From the NCBI GenBank assembly GCA_020437805.1, contig JAGQVV010000016.1:1-35442 (forward strand): a stretch of 35,442 bases of DNA, in the 5' to 3' direction. Below are positions 9,062 through 30,782 of this stretch, piece by piece. This DNA is from Flavobacteriales bacterium. Its GTDB lineage: Bacteria > Bacteroidota > Bacteroidia > Flavobacteriales_F > PHOS-HE28. Below the pieces are notes generated by a model. That model worked only from the letters and a program-made list of their open reading frames with translations, made no database searches and was not told where the DNA came from. Numbering within the stretch: position 1 is the stretch's first letter; each line of letters starts with the position of its first letter. Made by a program: the position numbers and the translations under genes.

Positions 9062-10207
9062 TCAACTGATCCTACGCCCCTTCCATCGCGGCCGCACCAC
9101 CAACGCCAGCAGTGCGATGAGCGGTGAATAGATGCAGAACGCGAGGTAGGCGAATGCGGAGATCGGCCAAGCGTTGGAGAGGCCGAGGAATGAGCGCACC
9201 TGACGAACGAGCATCAGCACGGGCACAAGCCAAAGGATCCACGAAAGGGCAAGAAGGCTGATCATTTCCGGGCCGAAACCCTTGGGGAGATCAAGGAGCC
9301 GAATGGTACAGGTCCTCCACACCAGCAGCCAGGGCAGGATCACGCCCCACAAGCCGACCCATGGCCCGAGGCCGCGCACGCTGCGCATCTTACCCGCCCA
9401 TCGCAGACGTTGCGCCAGGAAGCCTTTACAGGTCCGCTCAGCTTGAACCACCACGGTCACCCTCGGATCCATCAGGCACCCGATCCGCCTGCCCGCTTCA
9501 CGCATGCGTTGGACCAGGAACACATCGTCACCGCTGGCAAGCTTGTCTCCCTTGAATTCCCCTACCGCTCCGAAGGCGCTCTTCCTGAACGCCATGTTCG
9601 CTCCATTGGCCAACATCGGCCTTCCCAAGAGTGCTTCGCCTGCAGCCATACCAAGCAGTCCGGCCTGCTCCTCTTCCTGTAACCGCCCCAGCGCTCCTAC
9701 GCCGGCCATGGTATGCACGGGCAGGATCAGAAGGTCCGATCCCTCCGCTTCCATGTGCTCCATGATCAAGGTTGTCCGCTTCCGTCCACAGCGCGCATCC
9801 GCATCGGTCAGTACCACGAATTCACCTGAAGCCACGTTCACTCCAGTGGTGATCGCCGCTTTCTTCCCTTCCCCGACGTTCCTGCAAAGGTGAAGTTGCG
9901 GCCATGTGCGTTGCATCGACCGAACGATATCCCCCGTTCCGTCCGAACTTGCGTCATCCACAACGATCACCTCGATCAGTTCCTTCGGCCAGTCCTGCGC
10001 ATGTAGATCCTGCAACAAGGGCACCAGCGTGGCTTCAGCGTTCCGCGATGCCACAACGTGGCTCACTCGACCATTGCGGCTTTCGCTCACCGATCTGTTC
10101 ATGGGCTCGGTCGCGGAACGGATGCGCTCGGTCCATGACCCCAGAACAAGGGCGAATAACAGGCATCCGACGAACACGGCCAGAATGGAAAGTGCCACCG
10201 CGCTCAT
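9062..10207 (-). CDS. family 2 glycosyltransferase, membrane-anchored
   Basis: A 381-residue GT-A-fold glycosyltransferase of the processive/cellulose-synthase-like type. An N-terminal membrane helix (residues 3-24) precedes the catalytic domain. VVDDASSDGTG at 82-92 holds the nucleotide-sugar aspartates, TDADA at 134-138 is the DxD metal-binding motif, GDD at 226-228 is the acceptor-site aspartate region, and QRLRW at 266-270 is the QxxRW motif. Two or three helices follow (WVGLWGVILPWLLVW, ISLLALSWILWLVPVLML, ISAFAYLAFCIYSPLIALLA). It probably transfers sugars to a lipid or polysaccharide at the inner membrane. Its start overlaps the stop of the flippase-like gene by 4 bases, which implies translational coupling. 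Confidence 0.9.
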   Translation of the reverse strand: MSAVALSILAVFVGCLLFALVLGSWTERIRSATEPMNRSVSESRNGRVSHVVASRNAEATLVPLLQDLHAQDWPKELIEVIVVDDASSDGTGDIVRSMQRTWPQLHLCRNVGEGKKAAITTGVNVASGEFVVLTDADARCGRKRTTLIMEHMEAEGSDLLILPVHTMAGVGALGRLQEEEQAGLLGMAAGEALLGRPMLANGANMAFRKSAFGAVGEFKGDKLASGDDVFLVQRMREAGRRIGCLMDPRVTVVVQAERTCKGFLAQRLRWAGKMRSVRGLGPWVGLWGVILPWLLVWRTCTIRLLDLPKGFGPEMISLLALSWILWLVPVLMLVRQVRSFLGLSNAWPISAFAYLAFCIYSPLIALLALVVRPRWKGRRIS

Positions 10208-11181
10208 CCTGAAGCTCTAGTGCGGATGCGGGCCAAGAGCAGGATGACACTACCGACGCAGGCCGGAAAGGCCACGTTGATCGTCCACAAACAAGTGGTG
10301 GCCAACAATACCGCGCTATCGGCGCCTCCCAGTGGACCGAAGACCGCGACGGCGACGGAGCCGCGGACACCGAGCTCAGTGAGCATGACCGTTGGGATCA
10401 ACGTCGCGATCAGGTACATCATCGGAACCCCAAGTAACGCTGCGGTGATCGGAACGCCACCATCGAAAGCCGACAAAAGAATGACGAACTGCCCGGTGAA
10501 CACGAAATAGCGTAACCCGCTGAGGAGCAATACCGCGACCAACGCGTGATCCTTGTGGGAGCCCAGGACGCTGGATGCTCGCTCCAGCCTGCTCAGGAAA
10601 GGCAGATGCATCAATAGTTGCCGCAGCAAGGCCGGGTGCAGATAGAACAGCAACGCGACCAAGGCGCTAAGGGCCGTAAGCGAAACGATGACCCACGTGA
10701 GCCAACCTCCTGGCCAAGGCAACGGGTGACCCGAGACCACGAGGCCCATCATGCCCAGACCTCCGAGGACCAAGGTCACCACGAACTGGGCGATACTGCC
10801 CAACGCGGTCGCAAAGCCTCCCCGGACCCTGTTCTCAGGCTTCAGGAACAGCACCCGCCCTATGAGCTCGCCTGTCCGGTTCACGCTCACCAGGCCCACG
10901 CTCGTGCCCGCGATCGTGGCAACGAAGCTCCGAAGTGGCCTCACGCTCTCCACAGGGCGGATCAGCACGCGCCATTTCGCTGCCTCGATACCCCAGTTCA
11001 GCATCATCAACGCGAAAACGCCCATGAACAATGGGGTGAGGTCCGAACGTGAAAGCAGTTCCTCAATGACTCCAGCAGTGAGAATACCTTTAGGGCCTTG
11101 GAACCTGGATACCAGGAAGGCGCACGCCAACAGGAAGATCCCCCAGCGGAACACAATGAGCAAGACGCGACCTACTGACAT
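10204..11181 (-). CDS. LPG synthase TM-region (UPF0104/flippase-like) membrane protein
   Basis: A 325-residue polytopic membrane protein with about eight hydrophobic segments. GIEAAKWRVLIRP, the GTSVGLVSVNRTGELIGRVL motif and the later LIPTVMLTELGVRGSVAVAVF are characteristic of the lysylphosphatidylglycerol synthase transmembrane-region/UPF0104 family. The soluble aminoacyl-transferase domain of MprF is absent, so this is the flippase-like half only. ATG 11181 fits the first helix; a longer frame to 11331 would run antisense into ruvC. It overlaps the downstream glycosyltransferase by 4 bases, suggesting that the pair makes and moves a glycolipid. The start codon overlaps ruvC's ATG head to head. 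Confidence 0.85.
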   Translation of the reverse strand: MSVGRVLLIVFRWGIFLLACAFLVSRFQGPKGILTAGVIEELLSRSDLTPLFMGVFALMMLNWGIEAAKWRVLIRPVESVRPLRSFVATIAGTSVGLVSVNRTGELIGRVLFLKPENRVRGGFATALGSIAQFVVTLVLGGLGMMGLVVSGHPLPWPGGWLTWVIVSLTALSALVALLFYLHPALLRQLLMHLPFLSRLERASSVLGSHKDHALVAVLLLSGLRYFVFTGQFVILLSAFDGGVPITAALLGVPMMYLIATLIPTVMLTELGVRGSVAVAVFGPLGGADSAVLLATTCLWTINVAFPACVGSVILLLARIRTRASG

Positions 11182-11785
11182 GACACATACCCAAGACGGG
11201 GCTGTGCCCAAAAGTAGGCCTGCTTTGACCGAGCGTATCATACTCGGCATTGACCCTGGGACCACGGTAATGGGCTTCGGAGTGCTTGCTGCGGAAGGGA
11301 GCCGGATCCGCTTGCTGGAGGCTGGTGCCATCCGATTTCCGAGAGGCGATGATCATACGCTGAAGCTTCGCGCCATCTTTCGCGGTACGATGGCCATAAT
11401 CGACCGGCATTTGCCGGATGAATTGGCCATTGAAGCGCAGTTCTTCGGAAAGAACGTCCAAAGCATGCTTAAGCTGGGTCGCGCCCAAGGGGTTGCCATT
11501 GCAGCCGCTCTTCAGCGCGACCTGAGCGTGGTCGAATACGCCCCGAAACGCATCAAACAGAGCGTGACCGGAAATGGGAATGCTGCCAAAGAACAGGTGG
11601 CGGCCATGCTCTTGAGCATCCTTCGGCTTTCGGAATTGCCGGCCAGTACCGATGCAACGGATGCAGTGGCGGTGGCCGTTTGCCATCACTTCGCCAATAC
11701 CGGTCGCGGCGCGCAGGTCACTAGCCGTAAGGGAGGAACGGATTGGGCCGCGTTCGTCCGCAACAACCCGGATCGCACCAGTTGA
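11180..11785 (+). CDS. ruvC: crossover junction endodeoxyribonuclease RuvC
   Basis: RuvC is the Holliday junction resolvase acting with RuvAB. From ATG 11180 the protein has 201 residues. The catalytic acidic residues are visible: Asp25 (ILGIDPGT), Glu85 (LAIEAQFF), and Asp158/Asp161 (TDATDAVAVA), with the E. coli spacing in the last pair. QSMLKLGRAQGV and PKRIKQSVTGNGNAAKEQV are the conserved DNA-binding segments. The first 15 residues are unlike other RuvC proteins, which normally start just before the first strand. TTG 11225 (giving MTERIILGIDPG) or GTG 11204 may therefore be the true start, which would also remove the head-to-head start-codon overlap with the flippase-like gene. The C-terminal ~30 residues are variable. 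Confidence 0.95.
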   Translation: MTHTQDGAVPKSRPALTERIILGIDPGTTVMGFGVLAAEGSRIRLLEAGAIRFPRGDDHTLKLRAIFRGTMAIIDRHLPDELAIEAQFFGKNVQSMLKLGRAQGVAIAAALQRDLSVVEYAPKRIKQSVTGNGNAAKEQVAAMLLSILRLSELPASTDATDAVAVAVCHHFANTGRGAQVTSRKGGTDWAAFVRNNPDRTS

Positions 11786-11786
11786 A

Positions 11787-12176
11787 TCACGCCTGCCGGA
11801 TAAGATCGGCCAAGGCGCTCAACTCCGTTGCGTCCATTTTCAATTTCGCACGACTGAACTCCATGTCGTGCATGCCGTCGATCGGAATGAGGTGTATGTG
11901 CGCGTGTGGCACTTCCAAGCCGATCACCGTAACACCGATGCGTGCGCACGGCACGACCGCTTTGATCTTCCGAGCCACTTCCTTTGCGAAAGGCATGATA
12001 CCACCCAAGGTCCGATCGTCCAGATCGAAGAGTTGATCGACCTCTGTTTTGGGTATCACCAGGGTGTGTCCCGGTTTCAAGGGGTTGATGTCCAAAAAGG
12101 CCAAGTACCGGTCGTCCTCCGCGATCCGATGGCACGGGATCTCGCCCTTGACGATGCGGGTGAAGATGCTGGCCAT
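11787..12176 (-). CDS. HIT family (histidine triad) nucleotide-binding protein
   Basis: A 129-residue histidine-triad hydrolase. The opening MASIFTRIVKGEIPCHRIAE and LDINPLKPGHTLVIPK are typical of the HINT branch, and the active-site triad HAHIHL is at residues 91-96. Proteins of this branch hydrolyse purine nucleoside phosphoramidates or adenylated substrates. The gene follows greA on the same strand with a gap of 2 bases, so the two form one operon; greA-HIT pairing is frequent in Bacteroidota to my knowledge. It converges with ruvC, leaving a single base between the stop codons. Confidence 0.94.
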   Translation of the reverse strand: MASIFTRIVKGEIPCHRIAEDDRYLAFLDINPLKPGHTLVIPKTEVDQLFDLDDRTLGGIMPFAKEVARKIKAVVPCARIGVTVIGLEVPHAHIHLIPIDGMHDMEFSRAKLKMDATELSALADLIRQA

Positions 12177-12178
12177 GG

Positions 12179-12652
12179 CTAACGTGTGATCTCCAAGACC
12201 TTGAACTTGGTGGTCCCAGCCGGGGTGGAAACCTCTGCCACCTCACCTACGGACCGCCCCAACAGCCCTTTGCCGATGGGCGATGACACGCTGATCTTTC
12301 CCGTCTTGATATCCGATTCACTTTCCGCCACCAGTGTAAAGGATCGTTCAACTCCGCTGCCCTCTTGCCTGACCTTCACCGTGGAATGGATATAGGCCTT
12401 GCTCGTGTCCAGTTGTTCGGAGTCGATCACCCGTGCACTGGCCACGATCGCCTCCATTTTGGCAATGCGCGCCTCGAGAAGTCCCTGATCCTCCTTCGCG
12501 GCGTGGTACTCCGCATTCTCGCTAAGGTCACCCTTGTCGCGTGCATCCGCGATCTGCTGGCTGATATGCGGGCGCTCCACGGTACGCAGATGATGCAGTT
12601 CCTCCTGCAGCTTTCGCAGGCCTTCCTCGGTGTAATAGGCTGTCGTGCTCAT
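12179..12652 (-). CDS. greA: transcription elongation factor GreA
   Basis: GreA inserts a coiled coil into the RNA polymerase secondary channel and stimulates cleavage of backtracked RNA. The 157 residues match the family length. The N-terminal coiled coil runs to about residue 75 and includes the tip motif ARDKGDLSENAEYHAAKEDQ, whose acidic residues position the catalytic magnesium. The C-terminal FKBP-like domain has ISVSSPIGKGLLGRSVGE. A promoter-like TACCTTTG box lies about 54 bases upstream, so greA and the following HIT gene have their own unit apart from the PorV-like gene. Confidence 0.96.
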   Translation of the reverse strand: MSTTAYYTEEGLRKLQEELHHLRTVERPHISQQIADARDKGDLSENAEYHAAKEDQGLLEARIAKMEAIVASARVIDSEQLDTSKAYIHSTVKVRQEGSGVERSFTLVAESESDIKTGKISVSSPIGKGLLGRSVGEVAEVSTPAGTTKFKVLEITR

Positions 12653-12724: not shown

Positions 12725-13780
12725 TCAAAGACTGATGCGCACACCCACACTGTGGATCCCATCGAAGGGGTTCGTGGCACGGTAGGAGTAATCGATCGCA
12801 ATGGCCGATTTCTTTTCCTCACCAAACGGCAGGTCAACGCTCAGTCCCGCAGTGGGTCCGGTATATACCGTGGTACGGTCCTCTTGGCTGGTGATATCCG
12901 CCTCGTACGTGTATCCTCCGCGCAGGTGCACCATCTTCCGGAATGCATATTCCACCCCGATCGCTCCTTGGTCGTTGGTGAAGGAATTGGAAATGAACGT
13001 ACCCGCAAAGCTCACGCGATGCATTTCGTTCACATGCCAATCATAGGATGCACCGATGTTGAGGAGGGAAGGGATCTCGAAATTCGCCGAACGCTGCTCC
13101 AAGGTTAGCTGATCACTACCGTTCACCAAGAAGCCTTGTACGGAAAGGCCATCACCGGAGAAGGCCATCGCTGGTCCCACGTTCTTCAACGCGATGCCGA
13201 AGTGCACGTTGTCCTGCGGACCGGTGACATAGTGGATGCCCGCATCGAAACAAACTCCTGATGTGCGTACGTTGGCGATCGACTCGGACACCATGCGCAC
13301 GAGGAATCCACCGTGGATGCTGTTCGAAAAGCTCTTCGCGTAGGACAATCCGATGTTTGCCATGTTCGGACTGAATGTTCCCAGACCACCGGATGGATCA
13401 TCCACCGTGGTTACCTGCAGATCTCCGAAGCCGATCATGGTGGCTGAAATACCCAAGACACCCGAGGCACCCATCTTCTGACCGAAGCCGATGCTATTGA
13501 TCGTGGTTCCCGAACCACTGAGCCATTGGGTGTTGGCGAACAAGACCTCGGTCTTGTTCACCTGCGCCAACCCGGCGATGTTGCCGAACATGGCCTCCAC
13601 ACCACGCACCGATGCGGAGTTGGCCAAGCCCCAGCCCGAGGAACGTGCCCAAGGATTGATGAGCAATTGTGTGGCACCGGCCGAGCCGGCACGGTCCGGA
13701 TTACCGGCCATGACAGGGCTTGAGGCAAGCGCCAATATCGCTGCCGCCAACATCGCTTTCCGTTCCATCGTTCGCATCAT
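12725..13780 (-). CDS. PorV/PorQ family outer-membrane beta-barrel protein
   Basis: A ~351-residue predicted outer-membrane barrel with a signal peptide (MERKAMLAAAILALASSPVMA). After the cleavage site, GATQLLINPWARSSGWGLANSASVRGVEAMFGNIAGLA is the recognisable opening of PorV/PorQ-type proteins, followed by alternating amphipathic strands and a final strand GIHSVGVRISL. PorV shuttles T9SS cargo from the translocon to the attachment complex. The genome's true PorV is usually elsewhere, and this copy is tied to the large secreted protein and TonB receptor upstream, so it is probably a dedicated paralogue. The start is uncertain among ATG 13780, 13777 and 13768. The gap to the upstream gene is only 29 bases. 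Confidence 0.82.
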   Translation of the reverse strand: MMRTMERKAMLAAAILALASSPVMAGNPDRAGSAGATQLLINPWARSSGWGLANSASVRGVEAMFGNIAGLAQVNKTEVLFANTQWLSGSGTTINSIGFGQKMGASGVLGISATMIGFGDLQVTTVDDPSGGLGTFSPNMANIGLSYAKSFSNSIHGGFLVRMVSESIANVRTSGVCFDAGIHYVTGPQDNVHFGIALKNVGPAMAFSGDGLSVQGFLVNGSDQLTLEQRSANFEIPSLLNIGASYDWHVNEMHRVSFAGTFISNSFTNDQGAIGVEYAFRKMVHLRGGYTYEADITSQEDRTTVYTGPTAGLSVDLPFGEEKKSAIAIDYSYRATNPFDGIHSVGVRISL

Positions 13781-13809
13781 ATCGATTGGTCTTGTGTACC
13801 TGCGTCGGC

Positions 13810-16800
13810 TTAGAAATTCTGTAGGTCTATCGGGCGCAAAGCACCGAACCACTTGATCACTTTTTCACCCACCCCGGGTACTTCCACATGGCAGATGTAC
13901 ACGCCACCGGCGATCGGGATGTTGTTTGCGTTCTTGAGGTCCCAATCCAGATAGGTCAGGGAGTTGTCCTTCTTGAACTTCCGCACCAAGGTGCCGCTGA
14001 CGTTGAAGATCGTAATGGTACAGGACTGGGGCAGGTTGATGAATTTGATCCGGTTGTCCAACCGGGAGGTCTCGTAACCACTGAACGCGTAGTACGGATT
14101 GGGCACCACGTTGATCAGGTCCAGCGCGCTCTTCGCGGTGGAGGCTACGTTGTTCTCCGTGGCAAAGCCGGCCGTACCGAAGGTGTACAATGGCAGTCCA
14201 TTGTTCTGTGTGGGGTCGATGATGGGATCAAGGTCGCCAGGATAGGTGACGTATGGCACATACTTCTTGGTCACGTTCAGCCTGATGCGAACATCGGTAG
14301 CGAGCAATTCCGTACCCTCGATGCCCATCGCACTTCCCACCCAACCGATGCCTCGCAAGACCTTCAGGCGTTGCTGCGATCCGGTGGACTGCAACGTGGT
14401 GTGGATGTAGCGTCCCTCGTCGTAGTACGGAACGCGGTCTGCGTTGTTCAAGACACGTCGGTCGTTCTTGAACACATAGATCCAATGACAACCACCAAAG
14501 TAGGGTTCGCCTTGGTCCGTATACAACTCCGGCGAAGGGTTCCAGATCATGTCGCGACCGATGCCGCCACCCCAGAAGCTGTTCTCACCGAAACCGATGT
14601 TCAAACGCTCGCCAGTGCCGATGTCTATTGCGTAACCCGGGAACCAACCCATACCAGTAGGCTGGGCACCGTCCAAGGTGGCTTCGCTCTCATTGCAGCC
14701 CGGCGTACCGGACTTGCGGCCTTCCTTATCCACACTCGGCGATGCGCGCAATCCCATCCGGAGTGCTCCACCCTCGGAAAGTGCCGAGTTCTGCTCCTGC
14801 TCGAATACCGGCGAACGCGACCACTTGCTCTTATCAGCAGTGATGAACACCTGTACGCTCGGCACATCCTTCAGGGTGCTCAAGGACATGGAGGAGTGCG
14901 GCGTGGCCGCATTGCCTTCGGAAGGTGTTCCGCCTTGGAACTCGGCTTGACCGGCCAAAGGCCAGGGGCACCATGTTCCACCCAGGATGGTCTCATAGGT
15001 CCCATCGGGATCGTAGGTGCGGTCGTTCCAGATCGGGAAGTCCGCACTGGTGTATGTTCCGGAGCGGATCCAGTTCTGTACCACCTCTCCATCCGTATCC
15101 GGGATCCCGGTCAACCAGGCCCGACCGGGATCGGAGAAGACCAAGGAGCCCTCAGCCACAGGTGCGGCATAATCCCCGTTGTACTCGCCTTGCACGATGC
15201 TCACGCTGATGCCCCATTGCGGCAGCAACTGCTCGAATGGCGTGCTGATCGTCTTTTCACTGGACACCTCTTCACCCGTGGTCAGGTTACGGATCACCCA
15301 ATAGGCATCGGTAAGATCGTTCGGTGTGATGCTGTCCATGAACGCCAACTCGAATTCGGCATTCGGGACCTTCAGTGGGTCAACCACCTTGACGTCGATC
15401 GGTCCGGCACCGGTCACGTACGTGATCTCATCCTTCCTGTTGATCCCACTGCTCAGGATCGCGGTCTCCGTTTGCGGGGTCAACTCCGTAACGAGCCCAC
15501 CATTGCCAGTGCCTTCCAAGCGTGTCACCTGCAGACGATCACCATAGTTCGCATTCTGCACCGTGCCATTGGTTTCCGGTGCGGGGGGATGCGGAATACC
15601 CGTGTACTTACGGATCGCACCGAACGCTCCTTTACGACTGGCCACGAACGGGAAGGGCTGGCCTGTAAGCTGCACGGGATCATAATCCTCGAAGTTGTTG
15701 TAACCGTATGCGATCGCCAAGTAGTAGTAGGACTTGAAGTTCACCAAGCGGGGATCGCTCTGGGCGAACTTGTCCTCAAGGACCTGCAACGAACTCACCA
15801 CACCCTCATTGGCACCATTCACCATTTCCGTCGGCACGGGTTGGCCGAGCACATCGCTGTAAGGGTAGTTGATGATCTGTGAGATATCGTCCTCGATATC
15901 CCCTTGATAGACCAGGCGGGCGAGATCGATGTTACCCAGATCGGCCACACTGACCTCGGAGTTCGCCAACTGGTACAACAAATAACCTTGGAAGCGGTAT
16001 TCGCGATCGTAGGGATTGCCATCGGGGTCCAGTTCGGGGATGATCGGATCGAGCTCCACGTAGTCCAATGGTTGTTGCACGCGGTTGTTGCTACCTTGAG
16101 GATTATCGAAATAGATGATCAGCTCGCGGTCAAGCTCTTGGATGGTCAGGTCCGGTGCGTCCGGTCCGTCGAGGATCTTGAAGCAGTTGTCGAACAAGGC
16201 CTGCGCCTTATCATCCGCTATCTTCAGCGTACCCACGCTCGCTGTCGCACCACCATTGGCCGCACGGGAGTAGACCACACCCAAGGTGATGTTGTTGTAC
16301 GCGCCGGGCTCCAAGGTGAACGGACCGGCACTCTGCACGAAACGGCGATCCTGCGGAGCTTGTGTGCTCTCCCTCCAGTCCGGCTGAGGTGCACAGTTGG
16401 TACCCCAACCCACCGGATCACTGTCCCACGGGAACATGTAGCGTGTTTGGATGGCACCCGGGCTTTCGTTGTAGCCCGAACCTCCCCAGGTCATTGGAAG
16501 GTTGTTCTTCCAGACGCTGCGCAGGTAATTATAGAAGTGCGCCGCAGTGGACGGGTCGTTCGTATTGGCTGAACCTTCACGGTTCCAATACAGGAAGGCG
16601 CGCATTCCGAAACGCTCGTTGTCAGGGAAGTCATCACCGTATCCGATACCGATACCCTTGTAAGGGATACCGTTCTCCTGTTGGGCGGTGACACAATCGA
16701 AGACCTCGATGTTCGTTTGTGGGCCAGGGTTATCCACCCCATCCGCATCCTGGTACGGCCCCTCGAAGAAGTCCACACCTATAGCAGGTGGTTGGGCACC

Positions 16801-17895
16801 ATAGCCCGGAGCGCCCAGGCAGGCCTCGTCATTGTCATCCCAGTTATAGGCGAACCCGAGTCCACGCTGAACATCACATCCAACGAAGTCGTCATTGGAG
16901 CAGCCGAGATCGGGATCTATGAAGCTGCCGAAGTAGGTGTTCAACAGGGTCTGCGTGCCTTGGTTGATGACCACGTAATTATAGAAGGTCATGTTATTGA
17001 TCTCGTTGTTCGAGCTGAAGGCGAAGGCCTGCGCACGCACTTCGAGACCTATCGGTTGACCCAAGGACTCGGTGTGGGCATCTCCCTTGTCGTTGAAGAT
17101 CCAGAAGATGTTGTAGTCACCGAACAGATTGACCGGGTCATCGCGCTGACGATTCTTGCACTCCTCCACAGAGGTATCGAACCCGTAATCCGGGTGATCG
17201 CCCGCGAACGGATCGTAATTCCCGTCGCCATCGTAATCGACCCATGGCGCGAGGTATAGGTCCTGGCCGGCATCCACGTTACCGATGGCAGGCCATGTCA
17301 CGAAGGAGGTCGGGACCGAATAGCCGTTCGGGAAGAGCTCTTCCAGGTCGCAATCGGGATCCTCCTGACATTGGATCCACTGTATATGCGCCTCGACTTG
17401 GGCCCGCTCGGTCACCCAGAACTGGTTGTATTCGTCACACACTTCCTGGGTCACGGAAGCATCACCCGTATTGGTCAAGGGGCCGGGCCAAAAGTCATTC
17501 CCATCCGCACGGAACAGCACGGCGGCCAATTTGAGCTGGTTGTCCGGGCTCAGTCCGCCCATCCACAGACCACCCGCGTAGATCGCGTTCGGTCCAGTGA
17601 AATCCGGGGTCTTGGGGATCTCGTAACCCGAACGGCTGTTACCTCCACGACGGGTCCACATGTTACCTCCGTTCTCGATCACCGCACGCACGTTGTTGAA
17701 CGCGATCTGTGTGACGGCCGATGCCGGCGAACAGGCCATGGCCTTCGGTCGGACGGGCGCCTGCCCGGAACCGGGCGGGCGGTTGGGTTTCATGGCGCTG
17801 GCCGGGATGGCCATCGACGCAAGGAGGCTCAGAGCGAAGGTTCTGGTCAGGAGTGCTCTTTGTATGCCTTTCATGGTATTGCGTTGTGCGTTCAT
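13810..17895 (-). CDS. large secreted protein with FlgD/T9SS-like C-terminal domain
   Basis: A 1361-residue exported protein of unknown function. A signal peptide occupies about residues 8-34 (MKGIQRALLTRTFALSLLAS, then MAIPASA). The N-terminal region has FNNVRAVIENGGNMW, YEIPK and IYAGGLWMGG, a theme I know from a family of giant Bacteroidota surface proteins. DYDGDGNYD at 220-228 looks like a calcium-binding loop. The remainder is beta-rich with many Asn, Gly and aromatic residues and several cysteine pairs. The last ~100 residues (NVVPNPYYAFSGYE, then CTITIFNVSGTLVRKF, LDWDLKNANN, GGVYICHV, ending RPIDLQNF) form a FlgD/Por-secretion-like Ig domain but end differently from type A sorting domains. 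Start ATG 17895 overlaps the TonB receptor stop (TGATG); ATG 17874 is an alternative. No enzyme motif was found. Confidence 0.88.
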   Translation of the reverse strand: MNAQRNTMKGIQRALLTRTFALSLLASMAIPASAMKPNRPPGSGQAPVRPKAMACSPASAVTQIAFNNVRAVIENGGNMWTRRGGNSRSGYEIPKTPDFTGPNAIYAGGLWMGGLSPDNQLKLAAVLFRADGNDFWPGPLTNTGDASVTQEVCDEYNQFWVTERAQVEAHIQWIQCQEDPDCDLEELFPNGYSVPTSFVTWPAIGNVDAGQDLYLAPWVDYDGDGNYDPFAGDHPDYGFDTSVEECKNRQRDDPVNLFGDYNIFWIFNDKGDAHTESLGQPIGLEVRAQAFAFSSNNEINNMTFYNYVVINQGTQTLLNTYFGSFIDPDLGCSNDDFVGCDVQRGLGFAYNWDDNDEACLGAPGYGAQPPAIGVDFFEGPYQDADGVDNPGPQTNIEVFDCVTAQQENGIPYKGIGIGYGDDFPDNERFGMRAFLYWNREGSANTNDPSTAAHFYNYLRSVWKNNLPMTWGGSGYNESPGAIQTRYMFPWDSDPVGWGTNCAPQPDWRESTQAPQDRRFVQSAGPFTLEPGAYNNITLGVVYSRAANGGATASVGTLKIADDKAQALFDNCFKILDGPDAPDLTIQELDRELIIYFDNPQGSNNRVQQPLDYVELDPIIPELDPDGNPYDREYRFQGYLLYQLANSEVSVADLGNIDLARLVYQGDIEDDISQIINYPYSDVLGQPVPTEMVNGANEGVVSSLQVLEDKFAQSDPRLVNFKSYYYLAIAYGYNNFEDYDPVQLTGQPFPFVASRKGAFGAIRKYTGIPHPPAPETNGTVQNANYGDRLQVTRLEGTGNGGLVTELTPQTETAILSSGINRKDEITYVTGAGPIDVKVVDPLKVPNAEFELAFMDSITPNDLTDAYWVIRNLTTGEEVSSEKTISTPFEQLLPQWGISVSIVQGEYNGDYAAPVAEGSLVFSDPGRAWLTGIPDTDGEVVQNWIRSGTYTSADFPIWNDRTYDPDGTYETILGGTWCPWPLAGQAEFQGGTPSEGNAATPHSSMSLSTLKDVPSVQVFITADKSKWSRSPVFEQEQNSALSEGGALRMGLRASPSVDKEGRKSGTPGCNESEATLDGAQPTGMGWFPGYAIDIGTGERLNIGFGENSFWGGGIGRDMIWNPSPELYTDQGEPYFGGCHWIYVFKNDRRVLNNADRVPYYDEGRYIHTTLQSTGSQQRLKVLRGIGWVGSAMGIEGTELLATDVRIRLNVTKKYVPYVTYPGDLDPIIDPTQNNGLPLYTFGTAGFATENNVASTAKSALDLINVVPNPYYAFSGYETSRLDNRIKFINLPQSCTITIFNVSGTLVRKFKKDNSLTYLDWDLKNANNIPIAGGVYICHVEVPGVGEKVIKWFGALRPIDLQNF

Positions 17896-20800
17896 CAGAA
17901 GTCGAATCGAACTCCCAGTCGAATGGTACGAGGGGCGCCATAGTTGAAGGGGGAGTCCACCTTCAAAGCGTAGAGATCAGCGAAGGAAGCAGGGTCGGTC
18001 TGTGCCACGATCTGCGCTTGGGACTGTGCCGAGGCCAAGAATCCGTCGTTATTGGGTGAACCCGTATAGCGATAAACACCCGTGATGTTCTCCGTGTTGA
18101 ACACATTGGTGATCAGCAGGTAGATGTTCAGGTTCGCGCTCTTGACCTTATCCCCTTCTCCCTTACCGAAGGTGAGGGGAATGTCGCGGTCGATCTGCAT
18201 ATCCGTGGTGAACTGCCAAGGCAAGCGAGCACCGTTCAAGGACCCGTCCAAGAGATAGTTGTTCGCCCCTGTCCCTTCACTCACAACTTGGCTGCTGCGG
18301 CTGTAGGGTGTACCGCTTCCCAGGATCCCCACCACGTTCACACCTGTCCGTTGGAAGACCGGTGAGTCGAACAGCATGGGGCCATTGTAGTCCTTGCCTC
18401 CACCATACCGGAAATCGAAGGTGGTGGTGAAACGGTGGCGTTGATCGAAGTCGAGCGGGCTGATCGTTCGCAGGTTCGGTTGGCCGGAGTTGATCAGGTT
18501 CAGCCCCGTGTTCGGACCGGAACCCGTACCGTCAGCGAACTGAAGGGTGTAGGTGGCACGCATCCAAACGTTGCCCGTGCGCCGCAGGTCGAAAGCGGCC
18601 GTGAACCCTTTAACCGTACCGAAATCGAAGTTATCATAGGTACGGTAGTCGCGCGGCCATGCGTTCACCACGTTGCGGATCTGGATCTGATCGCGCAATT
18701 CCCGGTAGAACACCGAGAGCTTCAACGACGAAGCTTTGGTCAAGACCTGTTGGAAACCCAATTCGTAGTCGATCGTCTTGGTCGGCTTGAGGTTGGGGTT
18801 CGAAAGGATGTTCCCACTGTTCTGGATGTATGCATAGTCCACCAGGTTCAGACGCGATTGACCGGAGTTCGGTCGTTGGGTCAGAACGTCATAGTGGGCG
18901 AAGAACACGGCTTCATCCGAGATGGGGAAGGAGAAGGCCACGCGAGGCATGACATTGATCGCTGGGGTATAATCGGTGAACGCTTCCTTGCTCAGATCGG
19001 AACCGGGCAGATCACCACCCTCACCACGCTCGATCAGGTAAGGGCGGATCTGACCGGCCTCCTGTAAGGACGATCCATCGGTCAACTCCGTACCATCACT
19101 GGCGTACCATACATCACCATCGCGGTATCCCTTCACCGTGTTCGGTGCCGCGTAGTTGTCAACGTACACCACGAAATCATCCCCGATATTGCTTGGACGG
19201 TTCGCCAACTGCTGCCGGATACCATTGTCCGCCACGGCCGAGCCCGCGGTGTAGGCCTCCTGCCAGAGGTACTTGTCCTTCAGCACATTCTGGTTGGCAT
19301 CATAACGATCAACACGCACACCCACGTTGAAGATGATATCGTCGAAAGCGAACTTGTCCATCACATAGCCGGCCATGTAGATCGGCTCGAAGGGAGCTTG
19401 CAATCGCGTGGCGTTGCCGTTCGCATCGGTGGCCTCGAAGAAGGAAGCAAAGCTCGGCTTGCTCGTCAAGCGGTTACCGAGGAAATCGTACCCCACGTAG
19501 TTCACGAGGTTGTTACCGTTGTTCAGCAATTCATCCGGTGAGAACATACCGAGCGAATACACCCCCGGATCGATGGCGTCCACATCGATGAAGTCGAGTC
19601 CATTGGGATCAAGACCCAAGGCCGAGCGCAGGTTGCGATCGAATGTTGTCTGACCAGCCCCGTAAATGCGCGAGTAGTAAACGAACGGCAAGGTGCTGCC
19701 CGGGAGCTGCACAACGTCCGTCGGGTCGGTGTCCTGCCACTCGCGGATATGGAAGTTGGTGAGCGAACGTGCCCGGGTCCAAAGGCCGATCGGCGCAAGG
19801 TCGTACTGTCGCTGGGTGTATTGTTCATACTCCACACCAACGGATACCGCATGCGCTCCGATGTCGGCACTACCCGATGCGCTGAAGCGGATCTGATCGT
19901 TCAGGCGGTTCCTGTATTCCGCGCCGTTCGGGTCGTCAATGAAGCCGATGTTGTTCCAAAGGTTGTACAAGGAACGTGGGCGCTCGCCATTCCACAGCAC
20001 TCCTCGTGATTGTGTCTCGATCAGGTTCTGTCGGAAGCCTTGGTAGTTCGGATCGGAACCGGAAGGTGCGCCGAAGAGCTGCGCTATCGGGAACGTTTCC
20101 TGCGGGAGGTTGTTGAAGTAGAAGGTATTGATCGAAGCCAGGTCCGGGTTCTGCGTGCCGGGTGTGAAGCGTACCAAGGTGTCCTGTTCACCGATCTGCG
20201 CCCATTGGTTCTGGCGAAGTTCGAACTGGGCCCCGCGGAAGGTCTCGAACTTCCCAACGTAGCCATAGTCGAAAAGCCGCTCTCCGTGCTCGAAGTCGCG
20301 TACCTCGCTCGAGTACTGTGAGTAATCCAACTGCAAGGTGTAGAAAGCATTCTGGATCGTGGCCTTCTTCTCCTCCTCTTGCGTTCGGTTCGTGAAGCGT
20401 TGTGTGAACTTCACATAGGTACGCCAAGTGGACTCCTTGAACCGATAGTTGTTGTCCGCATTGAGCAAGGAATTGTTCCTGTTCCAATTCTGCCGGTTGT
20501 CATAATCGACCGATCCACCGAGGGTCAAGGTCACATTCGGAGTGGTGGCGATATCGATCTTGCCGGATGCCAAATAGCTCGTTCTTCCGGCGTTCTGGCG
20601 TGTGTCCAACTGCTCAATGTCCGAAGTACGTAAGTAATCACTGCTGTATGCAAGAATGAAATCGCTCGTACCGCTCGGGCGGAGCACGGCAGGCGTAGCA
20701 AGCAATTGGTCGCGGACATCGGAACGAACACGGAGGTCACCCAAGTAACTGGGAGACCCGTCCACCACATTGGTGAACTGCCCGGACACGAAGAAGCCCA

Positions 20801-21665
20801 ACAAGGGATTGGTCTTGTTCCCCAAGCTGTCCTTCCTGAATAAAAGCGGACCACTGAGGCTCGCTTCCACCTGATTGAAGGCGTATTTGTCCAAGCCATA
20901 TACCTGGGTGATATCCTCTCCAGTCTTGAACCCGGAGGTCAGATACTCCACGCCACCGAAGAAACTGCGGCTCGGACCACGGGTGGTGATGTTCACCAGA
21001 CCACCGGTCACGTCACCGTAGTTGGCCGGTACACCACCGGTTATCACCTGCACTTCCTCGATCGCGCTCTTCGGCAGTCCTGTACCCGCACCGGCCGGCA
21101 CCTTTACACCGTCAATGTAATAGTAGGTATTCTCGCTACGTGATCCACGTATGCTGATGCCACCTCCGGTTCCAGCCGTACTGGCACCAGCCACCGTGGT
21201 GGCGATGGAAGCTGCGGAACGACCCGGCATTTTCGCAATGTCCTCGCGCGTCACTGTTCCTCCGGAAGCACCACCGTCCCGATCGATGAGGGGAACGGTG
21301 TACTGGACCACCTCGAACTCGGTCAACTCGATACCCGCGTTCAAGCCGATATCCAAGAAGGTGATCTTGTTGCTGTTCACCACCACACCGGTCTGTTTGT
21401 ATGGTTGGTAGCCCACGTAGCTCACCACGACATCATAGGTACCCGGGTCAAGGGGCTTGATGAAGTATTCGCCGTCGAAATCCGTGGCACCGCCAGAGAC
21501 CTGGGTGCCTCGGTTCTCGACCACCACGTTCACGAAGGGGAGCGGTTCGCCGCTCTTCTTATCGGTGATCTTGCCTTTCAGGCTGCCGGCACCCACTTGG
21601 GCATTCACGGCGGCGATGGCGAAAAAGGAAAGGGCGATCGAGGAGAATAACCTTCTCAACATCAA
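17895..21665 (-). CDS. TonB-dependent receptor with carboxypeptidase-regulatory-like domain
   Basis: A 1256-residue outer-membrane receptor, long for the family. The signal peptide spans residues 1-22. A carboxypeptidase-regulatory-like Ig domain (SLKGKITDKKSGEPLPFVNV to about residue 110) is followed by the plug: REDIAKMPGRSAASI, ISIRGSRSENTYYYIDGVKV (170-189), AIEEVQVITGGVPANYGDVT (201-220) and GGLVNITTRGPS. The remaining ~1000 residues are barrel strands and large loops, ending in the aromatic strand APRTIRLGVRFDF. No SusD-like gene is adjacent, so it is not a classical polysaccharide system. It leads the trio with the large secreted protein and the PorV-like barrel and overlaps the next gene by one base. 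It imports, or forms a surface complex around, an unknown ligand. Confidence 0.93.
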   Translation of the reverse strand: MMLRRLFSSIALSFFAIAAVNAQVGAGSLKGKITDKKSGEPLPFVNVVVENRGTQVSGGATDFDGEYFIKPLDPGTYDVVVSYVGYQPYKQTGVVVNSNKITFLDIGLNAGIELTEFEVVQYTVPLIDRDGGASGGTVTREDIAKMPGRSAASIATTVAGASTAGTGGGISIRGSRSENTYYYIDGVKVPAGAGTGLPKSAIEEVQVITGGVPANYGDVTGGLVNITTRGPSRSFFGGVEYLTSGFKTGEDITQVYGLDKYAFNQVEASLSGPLLFRKDSLGNKTNPLLGFFVSGQFTNVVDGSPSYLGDLRVRSDVRDQLLATPAVLRPSGTSDFILAYSSDYLRTSDIEQLDTRQNAGRTSYLASGKIDIATTPNVTLTLGGSVDYDNRQNWNRNNSLLNADNNYRFKESTWRTYVKFTQRFTNRTQEEEKKATIQNAFYTLQLDYSQYSSEVRDFEHGERLFDYGYVGKFETFRGAQFELRQNQWAQIGEQDTLVRFTPGTQNPDLASINTFYFNNLPQETFPIAQLFGAPSGSDPNYQGFRQNLIETQSRGVLWNGERPRSLYNLWNNIGFIDDPNGAEYRNRLNDQIRFSASGSADIGAHAVSVGVEYEQYTQRQYDLAPIGLWTRARSLTNFHIREWQDTDPTDVVQLPGSTLPFVYYSRIYGAGQTTFDRNLRSALGLDPNGLDFIDVDAIDPGVYSLGMFSPDELLNNGNNLVNYVGYDFLGNRLTSKPSFASFFEATDANGNATRLQAPFEPIYMAGYVMDKFAFDDIIFNVGVRVDRYDANQNVLKDKYLWQEAYTAGSAVADNGIRQQLANRPSNIGDDFVVYVDNYAAPNTVKGYRDGDVWYASDGTELTDGSSLQEAGQIRPYLIERGEGGDLPGSDLSKEAFTDYTPAINVMPRVAFSFPISDEAVFFAHYDVLTQRPNSGQSRLNLVDYAYIQNSGNILSNPNLKPTKTIDYELGFQQVLTKASSLKLSVFYRELRDQIQIRNVVNAWPRDYRTYDNFDFGTVKGFTAAFDLRRTGNVWMRATYTLQFADGTGSGPNTGLNLINSGQPNLRTISPLDFDQRHRFTTTFDFRYGGGKDYNGPMLFDSPVFQRTGVNVVGILGSGTPYSRSSQVVSEGTGANNYLLDGSLNGARLPWQFTTDMQIDRDIPLTFGKGEGDKVKSANLNIYLLITNVFNTENITGVYRYTGSPNNDGFLASAQSQAQIVAQTDPASFADLYALKVDSPFNYGAPRTIRLGVRFDF

Positions 21666-25755: not shown

Positions 25756-27573
25756 TTATTCCTTCACGAATCGCCCTGTGACCGTTCTCCCTTGATCCTC
25801 CAGTTCCACTAGGTAGGCGCCTGAGGCCAAGCCACGAACATCAATGCGCAACACCTCGGCAGTGCGCTCGACCGGTACATGCACCATCCTTCCATGCATA
25901 TCGATCACACGTAGCGCTGCGTCCGCACCGAAGCCGTTCGAAAGGCTGATCCGATCCACGGCAGGGTTCGGTACGATGGTCAACAACGCGTCGGACCCGT
26001 GATCATTGATGGACGTCGAGAGATCGGTGGTCGCGATGTGCGGCAGCCCTGCGTTGAAATCCCCTCCGATCACGATGGTGTTCCCTTGCACGTTCAACGC
26101 ATGCACAGCGCCATTCATCAGGCCCGTCAAGGGCTCGAAGCCCATGTCCTCAGCATGCCACAAGGCAGTGTTCATGCCCAGAAGGCCAAAGTCGATGAAG
26201 GAGAAATCCCCTCCGAACACAATGTCCGACCCGCGTCGGGCAAGGGCGTGGATAGCGGCCGGTCCAACATTGCTCGATAAATGGTCCTCGTGGCCGGGGA
26301 TCAACTCCTCCCAATCCGATGCACCACTGTTGAAGCGAGCCATCCCGAAGGTGGGGACGATGTTCTCGAACAGCTGCCCCCCTGCAACAAGGGCACCGTC
26401 CATCTCCATCAGGGCATGCACCGCGGCGTCCAGGCCGTTGCCGAGCTGCGACCATGAGGTACCTGCCAGTGTGGCCACGTGATCCAGAACGGGATCCGTC
26501 GGTCCATCGATCCCGGTGAACGCTCCGGCCGCCACGAGGAAGCCATCGTGCGAAGCCAAGGCATGGACCGTATTGTTGAACACCTCACCTACCGCTTCCC
26601 AACCATTGTCCGTCCGCTTCATCACCACATCGTCGATCCCGGCGAATCCCGAGAACGCGCCTGCGGTATACAATTCACCTTCATGCACATGCAACGCATG
26701 GATCAAGGGGTACTTACCATCGAACACGGAACTGAAGCTCCATTCCGAACCATCCCATATCGCGAGGTCCGAGTACCCCTCCATCTCAGCACCGCCGAGA
26801 ACAATGTTCCCATTGTATTCCACGGCCGCATTCACGTACCCATGGACACCTGCGCCCAGCGCGTTGTACGCAGCACCATCCCAGATCGCCACACTGTTCA
26901 ACTCCAAGCCACCCGGTCCATTGAAATCACCAGCCACCAGGAGGTCGCCGTTGTCCAGGCGCAGCAATACCCTTACCGGACCATCCAGCCCCGGACCCAA
27001 CGGGAACCAAGGGACCGGTGGGGCGTAGGCCGGTTGGATCCAAGCGAGCTCATCCGCGGTGAAACCCTGAACACTCGCCCACTCACCGATCTCCGGCAAA
27101 TGCATATCGCGGATGTAGGCCAACTCGAGTTCATCATCGATCCGTGCCGCAAGGTCCGAGGCGCCGCTCTCGATCATCAAGTGCCCCACGGCACATGCTG
27201 TTCCGTACGGGTCGATGAAGACCGGGTTCCGATACGGCAGGACCTCGTTCTTCGGGAATCTCCGGGCATCCGCGTATCGATCGAGATCCTCCAACGAGGC
27301 AATGCGCCGTGCGGCCTGGTCGGCGGATAGCTCCCCGGCGGTGCGTGATGCGAGCTGCTCCTTGACAAGCCTCAGGTGCATCGCGATACGATCGGTTTCG
27401 TCCGTGAACGACACAGAGCGATCGGCGTTCTCGAGGTGCGTTGCGTGCGAGCGCCACTCGGCGTTCACCTCGATCAAGTGGTCCTTCAACGGGGCTTGCG
27501 TTTGAGGCGGCAACTGGCCGAAGGAAAGGGTGGAAATACCGAGGATCGTGGGGAAGAGTAGTATACGTTCCAT
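25756..27573 (-). CDS. T9SS type A protein with seven-repeat beta-propeller
   Basis: A 605-residue exported protein from ATG 27573. The signal peptide is MERILLFPTILGISTLSFGQ. Residues ~20-200 form an uncharacterised N-terminal domain with PYRNPVFIDPYGTACAVGHL and GFTADELAWIQPAYAPP, which I recall from several surface proteins of this phylum. Seven repeats of a (V/I)HAL...G.LV.AGxF pattern follow (VRVLLRLDNGDLLVAGDF, VNAAVEYNGNIVLGG, IHALHVHEGELYTAGAF, VHALASHDGFLVAAGAF, VHALMEMDGALVAGG, IHALARRGSDIVFGGDF, VHALNVQGNTIVIGGDF), suggesting a seven-bladed propeller. The C-terminal ~80 residues (IVPNPAVDRISL, VIDMHGRMV, GAYLVEL) form the type A T9SS sorting domain. The longer frame to 27636 has no signal-peptide logic. 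Confidence 0.88.
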   Translation of the reverse strand: MERILLFPTILGISTLSFGQLPPQTQAPLKDHLIEVNAEWRSHATHLENADRSVSFTDETDRIAMHLRLVKEQLASRTAGELSADQAARRIASLEDLDRYADARRFPKNEVLPYRNPVFIDPYGTACAVGHLMIESGASDLAARIDDELELAYIRDMHLPEIGEWASVQGFTADELAWIQPAYAPPVPWFPLGPGLDGPVRVLLRLDNGDLLVAGDFNGPGGLELNSVAIWDGAAYNALGAGVHGYVNAAVEYNGNIVLGGAEMEGYSDLAIWDGSEWSFSSVFDGKYPLIHALHVHEGELYTAGAFSGFAGIDDVVMKRTDNGWEAVGEVFNNTVHALASHDGFLVAAGAFTGIDGPTDPVLDHVATLAGTSWSQLGNGLDAAVHALMEMDGALVAGGQLFENIVPTFGMARFNSGASDWEELIPGHEDHLSSNVGPAAIHALARRGSDIVFGGDFSFIDFGLLGMNTALWHAEDMGFEPLTGLMNGAVHALNVQGNTIVIGGDFNAGLPHIATTDLSTSINDHGSDALLTIVPNPAVDRISLSNGFGADAALRVIDMHGRMVHVPVERTAEVLRIDVRGLASGAYLVELEDQGRTVTGRFVKE

Positions 27574-27694
27574 GTCATTCATCGTTTGGTCCATTAACAT
27601 CGTGACGACCTTTGGACATCGAACGGGTGCGACCACGCTGCCTGTTCGGTGACGGAAAGTTACAACTGTGACCGACCTTCATTCCTCCACGACC

Positions 27695-28394: not shown

Positions 28395-30782
28395 ATGAAG
28401 CAACTCGTTACCCTGGTCTTGGTGCTGTGCCAAGTTTCCACCATCCATGCACAGGTCCGATCCGTTGGGCAGGTCCTGGACGAGAACAATGCCCCGGTGG
28501 CCCTGGCCAACATCGTGGTGGGAGATGATCAGGCCTTCGGTACGACCACGGACGAACAGGGACAATTCGTGTTGAACGGGCTTCCGGAAGGGGAGCATCG
28601 GGTCCGCATCAGCCATGTGGGATACGCGCCATTGGACACCGTTGTGCTCATCGACCGGACCAGCGCTCGGAAGGTGTTCACGCTGTACGCGGATATCCTT
28701 GAACTGCGCGCGGCGGAGATCACCGCTCTTAGAGTGGGCGACCAGCTTCCCTTTGCAAGGTCCTTGATCACCAAGGAGGAGATCGAGCGCGTGAACACCG
28801 GCGTGGACCTCCCCTACCTGTTGGACCTGCAACCGAGCGTGGTCACCACCAGTGACGCCGGCACAGGGATAGGCTACACGGGTATGCGCATCCGAGGCAC
28901 CGATGCCACACGCACGAACATCACCCTGAACGGCGTGCCCTTCAACGACCCGGAGAGCCAGGGTGCATTCCTAGTGAACCTGCCGGACCTGGCATCCAGT
29001 GCAGAGGACATCGAAGTACAGCGCGGGGTGGGCACCAGCACGAATGGCCCCGCCGCGTTCGGTGCCACGGTGAACCTGCGCACCACCACGGTGAAGCGCG
29101 ACCCTTGGGCCAGTGTCGGGTGGAGCGGTGGCTCGTACAACACGCAGCGCTACAGCCTGAGCGCGGGCACCGGCCTGTTGCAAGAGCACTACAGTTTGGA
29201 TGTGCGCCTGAGCTCCATCACCAGCGACGGGTACATCGACCGGGCGACCGCCGATCTGAAGAGCTATTTCCTGCAAGGCGCCGTGGTGGGCAAGAAGCGT
29301 TCTCTGCGCTTCATCACCTTCCGGGGCATGGAACGGACCTATCAGGCATGGGCCGGGGTGCCGCGTGAAGTGATCGATACGAACCGGACATTCAACGAAT
29401 ACACTTACGCCGATGAGGTGGACAACTATGACCAGACACACTACCAATTGTTGTACGAGGAGAAGCTCGGAGCGAACACCACCCTCAATATCACCGGCTT
29501 CCGTGTGGATGGGCAAGGCTATTTCGAGAACTACAAGGCGGACCAGGAGAGTCCCGGTTTCTACCCGGACCCGGTGATCATTGGAAGTGATACGGTCGAC
29601 AACAGCGACTTCATCATTCGACGCTGGCTGGACAACACCCTGCTGGGAGCGAACGCATCGCTCGTCCACTCCTTCAGTGGCCATGATCTCGTGCTGGGCG
29701 GCAGCTACAGCGATTATCGCGGGGCGCATTTCGGAGAAGTGATCTGGGCACAGTATGCCGGGCCATTCCCGAAGGACTTCCGTTACTACAACAACGATGC
29801 GCACAAGAGCGATGCCAACCTCTTCGCCAAATTGAACTATGAGGTGAATGGCTCCTTGCACCTTTTCGGTGATGCCCAGATCCGCACCGTGAACTACGAT
29901 TTCCTCGGATTCGACAATGAACTGAACAACATCACCCAGAACACGACATACAGCTTCTTCAACCCCAAGGTCGGTGCCGACCTGCGGATCAAGGACCACA
30001 CCCGGCTCTATGGAAGCGTTGCCTTTGCCAACCGTGAACCGAACCGGGACGACCTGACGGAGACGACCCCGAACAGCAGGCCCACGAGCGAGCGCCTGGT
30101 GGACTACGAATTGGGCCTTGAAAGCCGCTCTTCGCGCAGGGCAGCGGGCATCAACCTGTTCTTCATGGACTACACCGACCAACTGGTACTGACCGGTGAA
30201 TTGAACGATGTGGGCGCCGCATTGCGCACCAACGTGCCCCACAGTTACCGCGCCGGAGTGGAACTCACCTGGGCGCTGCAACTGACCGGGCGCCTGCGCT
30301 GGAAGGGCAACGCCACCTTCAGTCGGAACAGGATCGTGGACTTCGATGAGTACGTGGACGACTGGGACAACGGAGGGCAACGCACGGTGCACCATGATGA
30401 GGCACCGATCGCATTCAGCCCGGAGGCCATTGCTGCAAGCGAGCTAACGTATCGTTTGTGGCGAGCGATCGGCAAAGGTGAGGCCGATATCACGCTCGTC
30501 ACCAAGTATGTCGGTGAGCAGTTCCTGGACAACAGTGGGAGCCCGCAACGTGCGCTGGACGCCTTTTTGGTGAACGACCTGCGATTGAACGTTGCGCTGC
30601 GATCATTCCTGAGGATCCCACATCTTGACCTCAACCTTACGGTACGCAATGTGTTCAGCGAGTTGTACGAGAGCAATGGTTGGAGCTACAGCTATTTCCT
30701 GGACGATCGTCGGCAGGAATTCGTCGGCCTGTATCCACAGGCACCGCTCAACATCCTTGGTGGACTGACGCTGCGGTTCTGA
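28395..30782 (+). CDS. TPP-riboswitch-controlled TonB-dependent receptor (probable thiamine uptake)
   Basis: A 795-residue outer-membrane receptor. The signal peptide is MKQLVTLVLVLCQVSTIHAQ. A carboxypeptidase-regulatory-like domain (VGQVLDENNAPVALANIVVG, GQFVLNGLPEGEHRVRISHV) is followed by the plug, with IGYTGMRIRGTDATRTNITL and VPFNDPESQGAFLVNLPDLA, then the barrel, ending in NILGGLTLRF. The plug's GMRIRGTDATRTN wording is as I recall for the thiamine-type receptors (Omr1) of Bacteroidota. Control by the upstream TPP riboswitch argues that its ligand is thiamine or a thiamine compound. It is a single-gene unit; the usual permease (pnuC/pnuT) and kinase partners are 3.5 kb and 150 bp upstream and outside the riboswitch's reach. 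A good GGAG site lies before ATG 28395. Confidence 0.93.
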   Translation: MKQLVTLVLVLCQVSTIHAQVRSVGQVLDENNAPVALANIVVGDDQAFGTTTDEQGQFVLNGLPEGEHRVRISHVGYAPLDTVVLIDRTSARKVFTLYADILELRAAEITALRVGDQLPFARSLITKEEIERVNTGVDLPYLLDLQPSVVTTSDAGTGIGYTGMRIRGTDATRTNITLNGVPFNDPESQGAFLVNLPDLASSAEDIEVQRGVGTSTNGPAAFGATVNLRTTTVKRDPWASVGWSGGSYNTQRYSLSAGTGLLQEHYSLDVRLSSITSDGYIDRATADLKSYFLQGAVVGKKRSLRFITFRGMERTYQAWAGVPREVIDTNRTFNEYTYADEVDNYDQTHYQLLYEEKLGANTTLNITGFRVDGQGYFENYKADQESPGFYPDPVIIGSDTVDNSDFIIRRWLDNTLLGANASLVHSFSGHDLVLGGSYSDYRGAHFGEVIWAQYAGPFPKDFRYYNNDAHKSDANLFAKLNYEVNGSLHLFGDAQIRTVNYDFLGFDNELNNITQNTTYSFFNPKVGADLRIKDHTRLYGSVAFANREPNRDDLTETTPNSRPTSERLVDYELGLESRSSRRAAGINLFFMDYTDQLVLTGELNDVGAALRTNVPHSYRAGVELTWALQLTGRLRWKGNATFSRNRIVDFDEYVDDWDNGGQRTVHHDEAPIAFSPEAIAASELTYRLWRAIGKGEADITLVTKYVGEQFLDNSGSPQRALDAFLVNDLRLNVALRSFLRIPHLDLNLTVRNVFSELYESNGWSYSYFLDDRRQEFVGLYPQAPLNILGGLTLRF

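Follow-up and report, generated by a model that had tools for sequence, protein, structure and literature searches.

A TonB-dependent receptor, a giant T9SS-type protein and a PorV-family barrel conserved as a unit across Bacteroidota: a candidate outer-membrane uptake complex

Several described outer-membrane systems resemble parts of the locus analysed here. SusC/SusD (RagA/RagB) joins a TonB-dependent receptor carrying a CarboxypepD_reg domain to a dedicated surface protein, has expanded into multiple copies and occupies glycan-use loci, and in these respects it is like the present unit; however, the receptor described below is not of the SusC family, its partner is a type IX secretion system (T9SS)-type protein that is neither SusD nor a lipoprotein, and there is an extra PorV paralogue. 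BtuB–BtuG and other TonB receptors have surface lipoprotein lids (cited in PMC12578637). They share with the present locus a dedicated external subunit on a TonB receptor, and differ from it in their lipoprotein anchoring and in having neither a T9SS-type C-terminal domain (CTD) nor a PorV paralogue.

Precedents also come from the T9SS, where PorV holds PorU and PorQ holds PorZ (PMC5562754) and where type B cargo has its own dedicated barrels (PMC12618676, PMC9143113). The PorU–PorV and PorZ–PorQ pairs of the T9SS attachment complex, like NCBI's PorU2–PorV2, unite a surface protein bearing a PorU/PorZ-like CTD with a PorV/PorQ-family barrel, but the surface protein at our locus is neither a sortase nor PorZ, its barrel falls under the equivalog cut-offs, and a TonB receptor is added. 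Type B cargo with PorP/SprF, such as SprB–SprF of Flavobacterium johnsoniae, likewise couples one cargo to a neighbouring barrel that determines its surface fate; here, in contrast, the barrel is of the PorV/PorQ family, the CTD is not type B, and the described type B operons lack a TonB receptor. Barrels for type B cargo and PorV-family partners of PorU and PorZ are already known, and what is new, within the papers searched, is the coupling of a TonB receptor to such a pair. In those papers we found no description of a TonB receptor–T9SS–PorV unit, in agreement with the preliminary description of this DNA, which had called its function undescribed; the Melioribacter genome paper mentions SusCDE and not the trio.

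The locus lies in a 35,442-nucleotide stretch of DNA from a Flavobacteriales bacterium, the whole of which is referred to as the window, and comprises the following features, listed with two neighbours:

17895..21662, minus strand: TBDR, a TonB-dependent receptor of 1255 aa with an ATG start
13810..17895, minus strand: SEC, a giant surface protein of 1361 aa (surface location predicted)
16174..17724, minus strand: predicted supersandwich domain of SEC, residues 58-574 (AlphaFold model and fold search)
17212..17238, minus strand: acidic loop DYDGDGNYD of SEC, residues 220-228, calcium-loop-like by sequence, without binding data
13813..14178, minus strand: T9SS-type CTD of SEC, residues 1240-1361, ending RPIDLQNF
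12725..13780, minus strand: PORV, a PorV/PorQ-family barrel, likeliest start the ATG at 13780
12179..12652, minus strand: greA, a neighbour kept within the window's class and outside the system
11787..12176, minus strand: HIT/HinT-family gene, also kept within the window's class and outside the system

TBDR ends in TGATG, its TGA sharing one base with the start of SEC, and the ATG of PORV lies 29 bases past the SEC stop, so that the layout given in the preliminary description (one strand, a one-base overlap and a 29-base gap) is borne out by the sequence. A longer PORV reading frame opening with GTG at 13852 would overlap SEC and is unnecessary, and the ATG is preferred as the most likely start. 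The remark that the trio has no adjacent SusD partner also stands, and SusD_RagB (PF07980) has no match at E<=1e-5 anywhere in the window's genome (3.2 Mb, 85.6% complete). Because the gene order is kept across the phylum, the trio is not a chance arrangement. Rfam returned no riboswitch or other element hinting at a substrate in the window or in five homologous loci, and a sequence search of solved structures matched neither SEC nor TBDR, and PORV no better than by chance.

Elsewhere in the window are two more proteins with T9SS type A tails (341-2218 and 25756-27636; 625 and 626 residues) that lack domains of clear function, a further TonB-dependent receptor of 795 aa outside any trio (28395-30782), an adenylate/guanylate cyclase with TPR repeats (31928-33916), and overlapping genes for a family 2 glycosyltransferase and an LPG_synthase_TM (flippase-like) protein (9062-11331), a pair kept downstream of the HIT gene in many relatives.

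The identity of TBDR as a TonB-dependent receptor is met by Pfam matches over cut-off to both the plug (PF07715, 39.2 bits) and the receptor barrel (PF00593, 33.3 bits), with a CarboxypepD_reg domain (PF13620) at the N-terminus, where no STN signalling domain was found by Pfam. The NCBIfam model for SusC/RagA, TIGR04056, does not match the window's TBDR at E<=1, and the receptor of one paralogous trio (L233) reaches only 59 bits against a cut-off of 368. The receptor family alignment is designated A3.

SEC begins with a Sec-type signal peptide, with no lipobox by eye, and has no Pfam match. Its CTD scores 17.7 bits (E 0.0025) against the type A model TIGR04183, below the cut-off of 23 bits, and the RPIDLQNF ending is typical of its own family (RPxDLxxF), which upholds the earlier view that this tail is unlike type A. 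The type B model TIGR04131 is not matched at E<=1, the partner barrel being of the PorV family and not PorP/SprF, and NCBIfam gives weak matches to PorZ (E 8.5e-4) and to PorU. The CTD consensus in the family alignment (A1) runs through NPYY..S.YE...., a G.LVR strand and WDLKN..NIPIASG.Y to the near-constant end WFGVMRPxDLxxF. With a length of ~98-107 residues and, by eye, a WDLKN..NIPIAGG insert, it is similar to the CTDs of PorU and PorZ, which are longer (~96-108 residues) and carry an extra hairpin in loop b5-b6 (PMC11285876). The CTDs of PorU, PorZ and PorA stay uncleaved, and cleaved and uncleaved CTDs are indistinguishable by such sequence features (PMC11285876). The DYDGDGNYD loop singled out in the preliminary description is present and partly conserved in alignment A1, most SEC homologues retaining an acidic loop.

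An AlphaFold model of SEC residues 46-1240 (mean pLDDT 89.4, pTM 0.70) was submitted to a fold search, on the strength of which residues ~58-574 are predicted to form a supersandwich as in GH94, GH15 and GH116 enzymes. The best matches are to 9ju0 (Z 18.6), 8xi1 (17.8) and 1ug9 (17.7), and the top-ranking ones include dextran dextrinase, cellodextrin phosphorylase, glucodextranase and GH116 enzymes, at Z ~16-18.6 over 231-274 residues. The predicted secondary structure of SEC shows no evident run of helices that would make up a catalytic (alpha/alpha)6 barrel after the supersandwich. The second half (residues ~575-1240) was barely covered by the search and was not searched as a model of its own. 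It is important to stress that the supersandwich fold alone proves neither function nor sugar binding.

PORV has no Pfam match, and meets the curated cut-off of the PorV/PorQ family NF033709 with 135.6 bits against 90. Its assignment as the PorV, PorQ or PorV2 equivalog was rejected, the scores being 50, 60 and 39 bits against cut-offs of 250, 220 and 325, respectively. Separate genes in the window's genome pass each of these three cut-offs, with the canonical PorV adjoining PorU, and PorQ and a PorV2–PorU2 pair encoded as well; since the genome thus has its own PorV, PorQ and PorV2, PORV is a fourth member of the family. The PorV2–PorU2 pair (L004:1393-3975) is another pairing of a PorV-family barrel with a CTD protein in this genome, besides PorU–PorV and the trio. 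On the model of a PORV homologue, the barrel is predicted to have the FadL-like fold of PorV, with Z 33.4 to 8gl6_F and 32.7 to 6h3i_F (PorV) and FadL next at 29.

One homologous locus (L007) made it possible to model the CTD and the barrel in a single chain: there PORV follows the SEC stop in frame, so that reading the TAA as a residue yields CTD, linker and PORV in succession. AlphaFold gave this read-through chain a pLDDT of 84 and a pTM of 0.83, from an input of 45 alignment rows, 12 of them fused. The barrel accounts for 328 of the 483 residues, from which alone we estimate that a pTM of ~0.7 at most would be expected if the CTD were unplaced; the observed value exceeds this, and the CTD is therefore confidently placed relative to the barrel in the model. 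Docking of a SEC-type CTD with PORV is thus a confident prediction, albeit one made on a continuous homologue chain, with no non-cognate control and with the coordinates uninspected.

Co-occurrence of the three families in this order across Bacteroidota had been named beforehand as a test of the unit, and its absence as a refutation; the test was run and passed. SEC was detected in 55 of the 58 genomes searched, the window's own counted, including nearly all representatives of other families in the window's class. Almost all loci with room have TBDR directly upstream and PORV directly downstream of SEC, followed, within that class, by greA and the HIT gene; cultured carriers of this arrangement are Crocinitomix catalasitica ATCC 23190 and Brumimicrobium oceani. 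Among the 116 loci of a long SEC for which both flanks are available, 88 have the order TBDR–SEC–PORV and the remainder lack PORV (3), TBDR (1) or both (24), in a set that includes related genomes and some genomes counted twice. In a further 20 loci from other classes or distant families (18 from other classes), the trio is present in 19 and the twentieth is cut by the fetched region. Only the two window-class loci among these 20 have greA and HIT beside the trio, and the idea that these genes belong to the system was dropped, as they are not adjacent in loci of other classes.

In multi-PORV genomes of other classes each PORV adjoins a TBDR and usually a SEC-like protein, with up to ~10 units per genome, and loci that had appeared to hold PORV without SEC, or with a weak SEC, proved to be complete trios with a divergent SEC in all eight checked. 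The PORV profile had a hit in every SEC-positive genome (40/40) and in no SEC-negative one (0/20), the SEC-negative genomes coming mostly from a few families, while SprA, the T9SS pore, is present in 59 of the 60. Within genomes, pairwise distances among PORV, SEC and TBDR correlate at r 0.85-0.90 (35 complete trios, five genomes), a value that none of 1000 permutations reached, and the units therefore duplicate together. A single deep split between branches contributes part of this signal, and neither the permutation figures nor the enrichments given below take account of kinship between genomes. The proposal that SEC has a dedicated PorV-like partner gains support from the co-occurrence, the paralogue distances and the CTD–PORV prediction; the stricter wording, that the barrel serves one specific partner, cannot be taken strictly, because 24 long SEC copies are without a barrel of their own, the five of them that were checked being in genomes with a complete trio.

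There are also departures from the standard arrangement. A second full-length branch of SEC has no linked TBDR or PORV (L042:5803-9894, L046:8402-12427, L048:7141-11343, L054:7880-12016, L055:5963-10252), and the first of these has a short SEC relative directly downstream. Since each of the five genomes has a complete trio as well, these orphans could be served by it in trans. Where a short SEC relative has no PORV linked to it, its tail, unlike that of long SEC, is of the ordinary type A-like kind, as in L065-L069 (about 600-660 aa) and in L073:5810-13318, which has three in tandem. A split arrangement occurs on contig PACT01000037.1 (L112 and L113), with TBDR–SEC tens of kilobases from SEC–PORV–greA–HIT. 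A SEC-like protein of 705-707 aa lies two genes upstream of TBDR–PORV in L235 and L242; L210 and L221 have TBDR–PORV with no SEC between, L213 has the rearranged order TBDR–PORV–SEC, and outside the window's class window-type trios have a GWxTD-domain protein after PORV (L214, L230, L236). The trio or a long SEC was also found on metagenome-assembled contigs labelled Chryseobacterium gleum, a doubtful label (L115, L131, L132, L137, L184).

What the unit might handle is suggested by its paralogues outside the window's class, whose neighbours were assigned by Pfam. Relatives of the trio sit in starch, cellulose and laminarin-type gene clusters, beside a GH16 with a T9SS tail and a GH3 (L211), GH94 and two glycoamylases (L220), GH94 (L239), a GH9 cellulase with a T9SS tail (L233), GH97 and a rhamnosidase-like enzyme (L212), a sugar ABC binding protein with two permeases and GH130 (L207), a sugar-type ABC binding protein (L246) or NAGLU (L219). 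In a repeated arrangement (L249, L250), PORV is directly followed by a T9SS protein with CBM48/CBM20 starch-binding modules, one of the two also having CBM53, and in L249 a LacI regulator and a CBM48 protein lie further on. In ten genomes, 11 of 27 GH16 genes are at most 10 kb from a PORV, against 0.9 expected, as are 8 of 52 GH3 (1.8 expected) and 2 of 15 GH94 (0.5 expected), under a simple Poisson model with genomes that are related. Along nearly their whole length, glycan-linked and window-type SEC proteins are homologous (hhalign E 2e-57, 883 columns). Several paralogues have neighbours without a link to glycans (amidase, PPIase, PLD, patatin, M16 peptidase), and the unit may accordingly handle a wider range of ligands; in the window's class neither its own trio nor the other single-copy ones have sugar or catabolic genes nearby, as far as annotated. 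The part foreseen for the TonB receptor gains support from its constant presence and, in the paralogues, from this sugar-gene context, the three-way complex itself being a prediction.

A simple rule by which the trio replaces SusCD found no support, presence of PORV and of SusD not being significantly exclusive (p 0.2, ~295 genomes). In terms of copy number, 41 of 55 genomes with at least four PORV have no SusD, and PORV occurs in only 9 of 79 genomes with at least six SusD (70 without), a tendency that may reflect descent and not replacement.

Since it is conserved as a unit phylum-wide and has relatives in glycan clusters, the trio looks like an undescribed nutrient-uptake machine paralleling SusC/SusD. 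The reading we favour, and consider rather probable, is that of a TonB-dependent outer-membrane uptake complex in which a T9SS-exported, PORV-anchored SEC takes the place of SusD. TBDR would be the energised channel, and SEC would be exported via Sec and then the type IX pathway, for which the window's genome encodes PorU, PorV and PorQ and close relatives SprA, the export of SEC itself being inferred. The CTD would not be discarded and would stay docked with its own PorV paralogue, much as PorU does on PorV and PorZ on PorQ, keeping the supersandwich body over or beside TBDR as a ligand-capturing subunit, the job of SusD lipoproteins. Outside the window's class repeated duplication of the trio would have given rise to copies devoted to individual glycans, and the window copy would represent an older branch, single-copy and linked to greA, with an unidentified substrate. 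The conserved unit, its co-occurrence and co-diversification, the folds, the predicted docking and the glycan context of the paralogues were computed here, and secretion and anchoring of SEC, retention of its CTD, contact with TBDR and uptake are inferred, without an experiment or a TBDR–SEC model.

Other outcomes can be envisioned for SEC once it is exported. PORV may be only a transient shuttle dedicated to SEC, which would then be cleaved and attached to LPS or released, delivering ligand to TBDR in the manner of a haemophore without a stable complex. PorV does shuttle type A cargo, type B cargo has dedicated PorP/SprF shuttles next door (PMC12618676), and PorU, PorV and PorQ are all at hand in the window's genome; yet the ordinary route would require no barrel of SEC's own, and the CTD falls under the type A cut-off and resembles those of PorU and PorZ, which are retained (PMC11285876). 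We regard such a shuttle as unlikely, and it stays open because PorU-cleaved and non-cleaved CTDs cannot be separated by sequence. Less plausible still, to the point of being quite improbable, is that SEC serves in adhesion or as a structural protein of the surface and that TBDR is a signal transducer or ligand-gated regulator instead of an importer. The great size of SEC, the N-terminal CarboxypepD_reg domain of TBDR and the lack of annotated catabolic genes near the window-class branch could all be accommodated in this way, but no N-terminal STN signalling domain was found in TBDR, paralogues sit with degradative enzymes and ABC importers, and SEC is predicted to have a supersandwich fold.

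It could also be argued that three unrelated outer-membrane genes have merely been held together by slow rearrangement, given that the surrounding greA–HIT block is itself conserved in the window's class. This can practically be discarded and is already contradicted, as the order persists in other classes without greA–HIT and in genomes with as many as ~10 paralogues, the distances match, and presence and absence agree fully in the sample.

The uptake complex remains the preferred reading, and there is a real chance that it constitutes a distinct transporter class. A wider proposal, on which we judge the evidence to be evenly poised, is that of a phylum-wide class of nutrient-uptake systems in the outer membrane, where a TonB transporter gets its external, ligand-capturing subunit through the T9SS and not through lipoprotein export, a PorV paralogue is retained as the anchor of that subunit, and the whole serves as the main glycan importer in several lineages without detectable SusD. 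If true, the T9SS would be part of transporter building in many Bacteroidota, beyond secreting enzymes and adhesins, and polysaccharide uptake in SusD-less lineages would be explained. Many genes now labelled merely "T9SS protein", "PorV/PorQ family protein" and "TonB-dependent receptor" would gain a joint function, and the question of why the CTDs of PorU and PorZ are retained could be put to the test with the many cognate pairs that nature provides.
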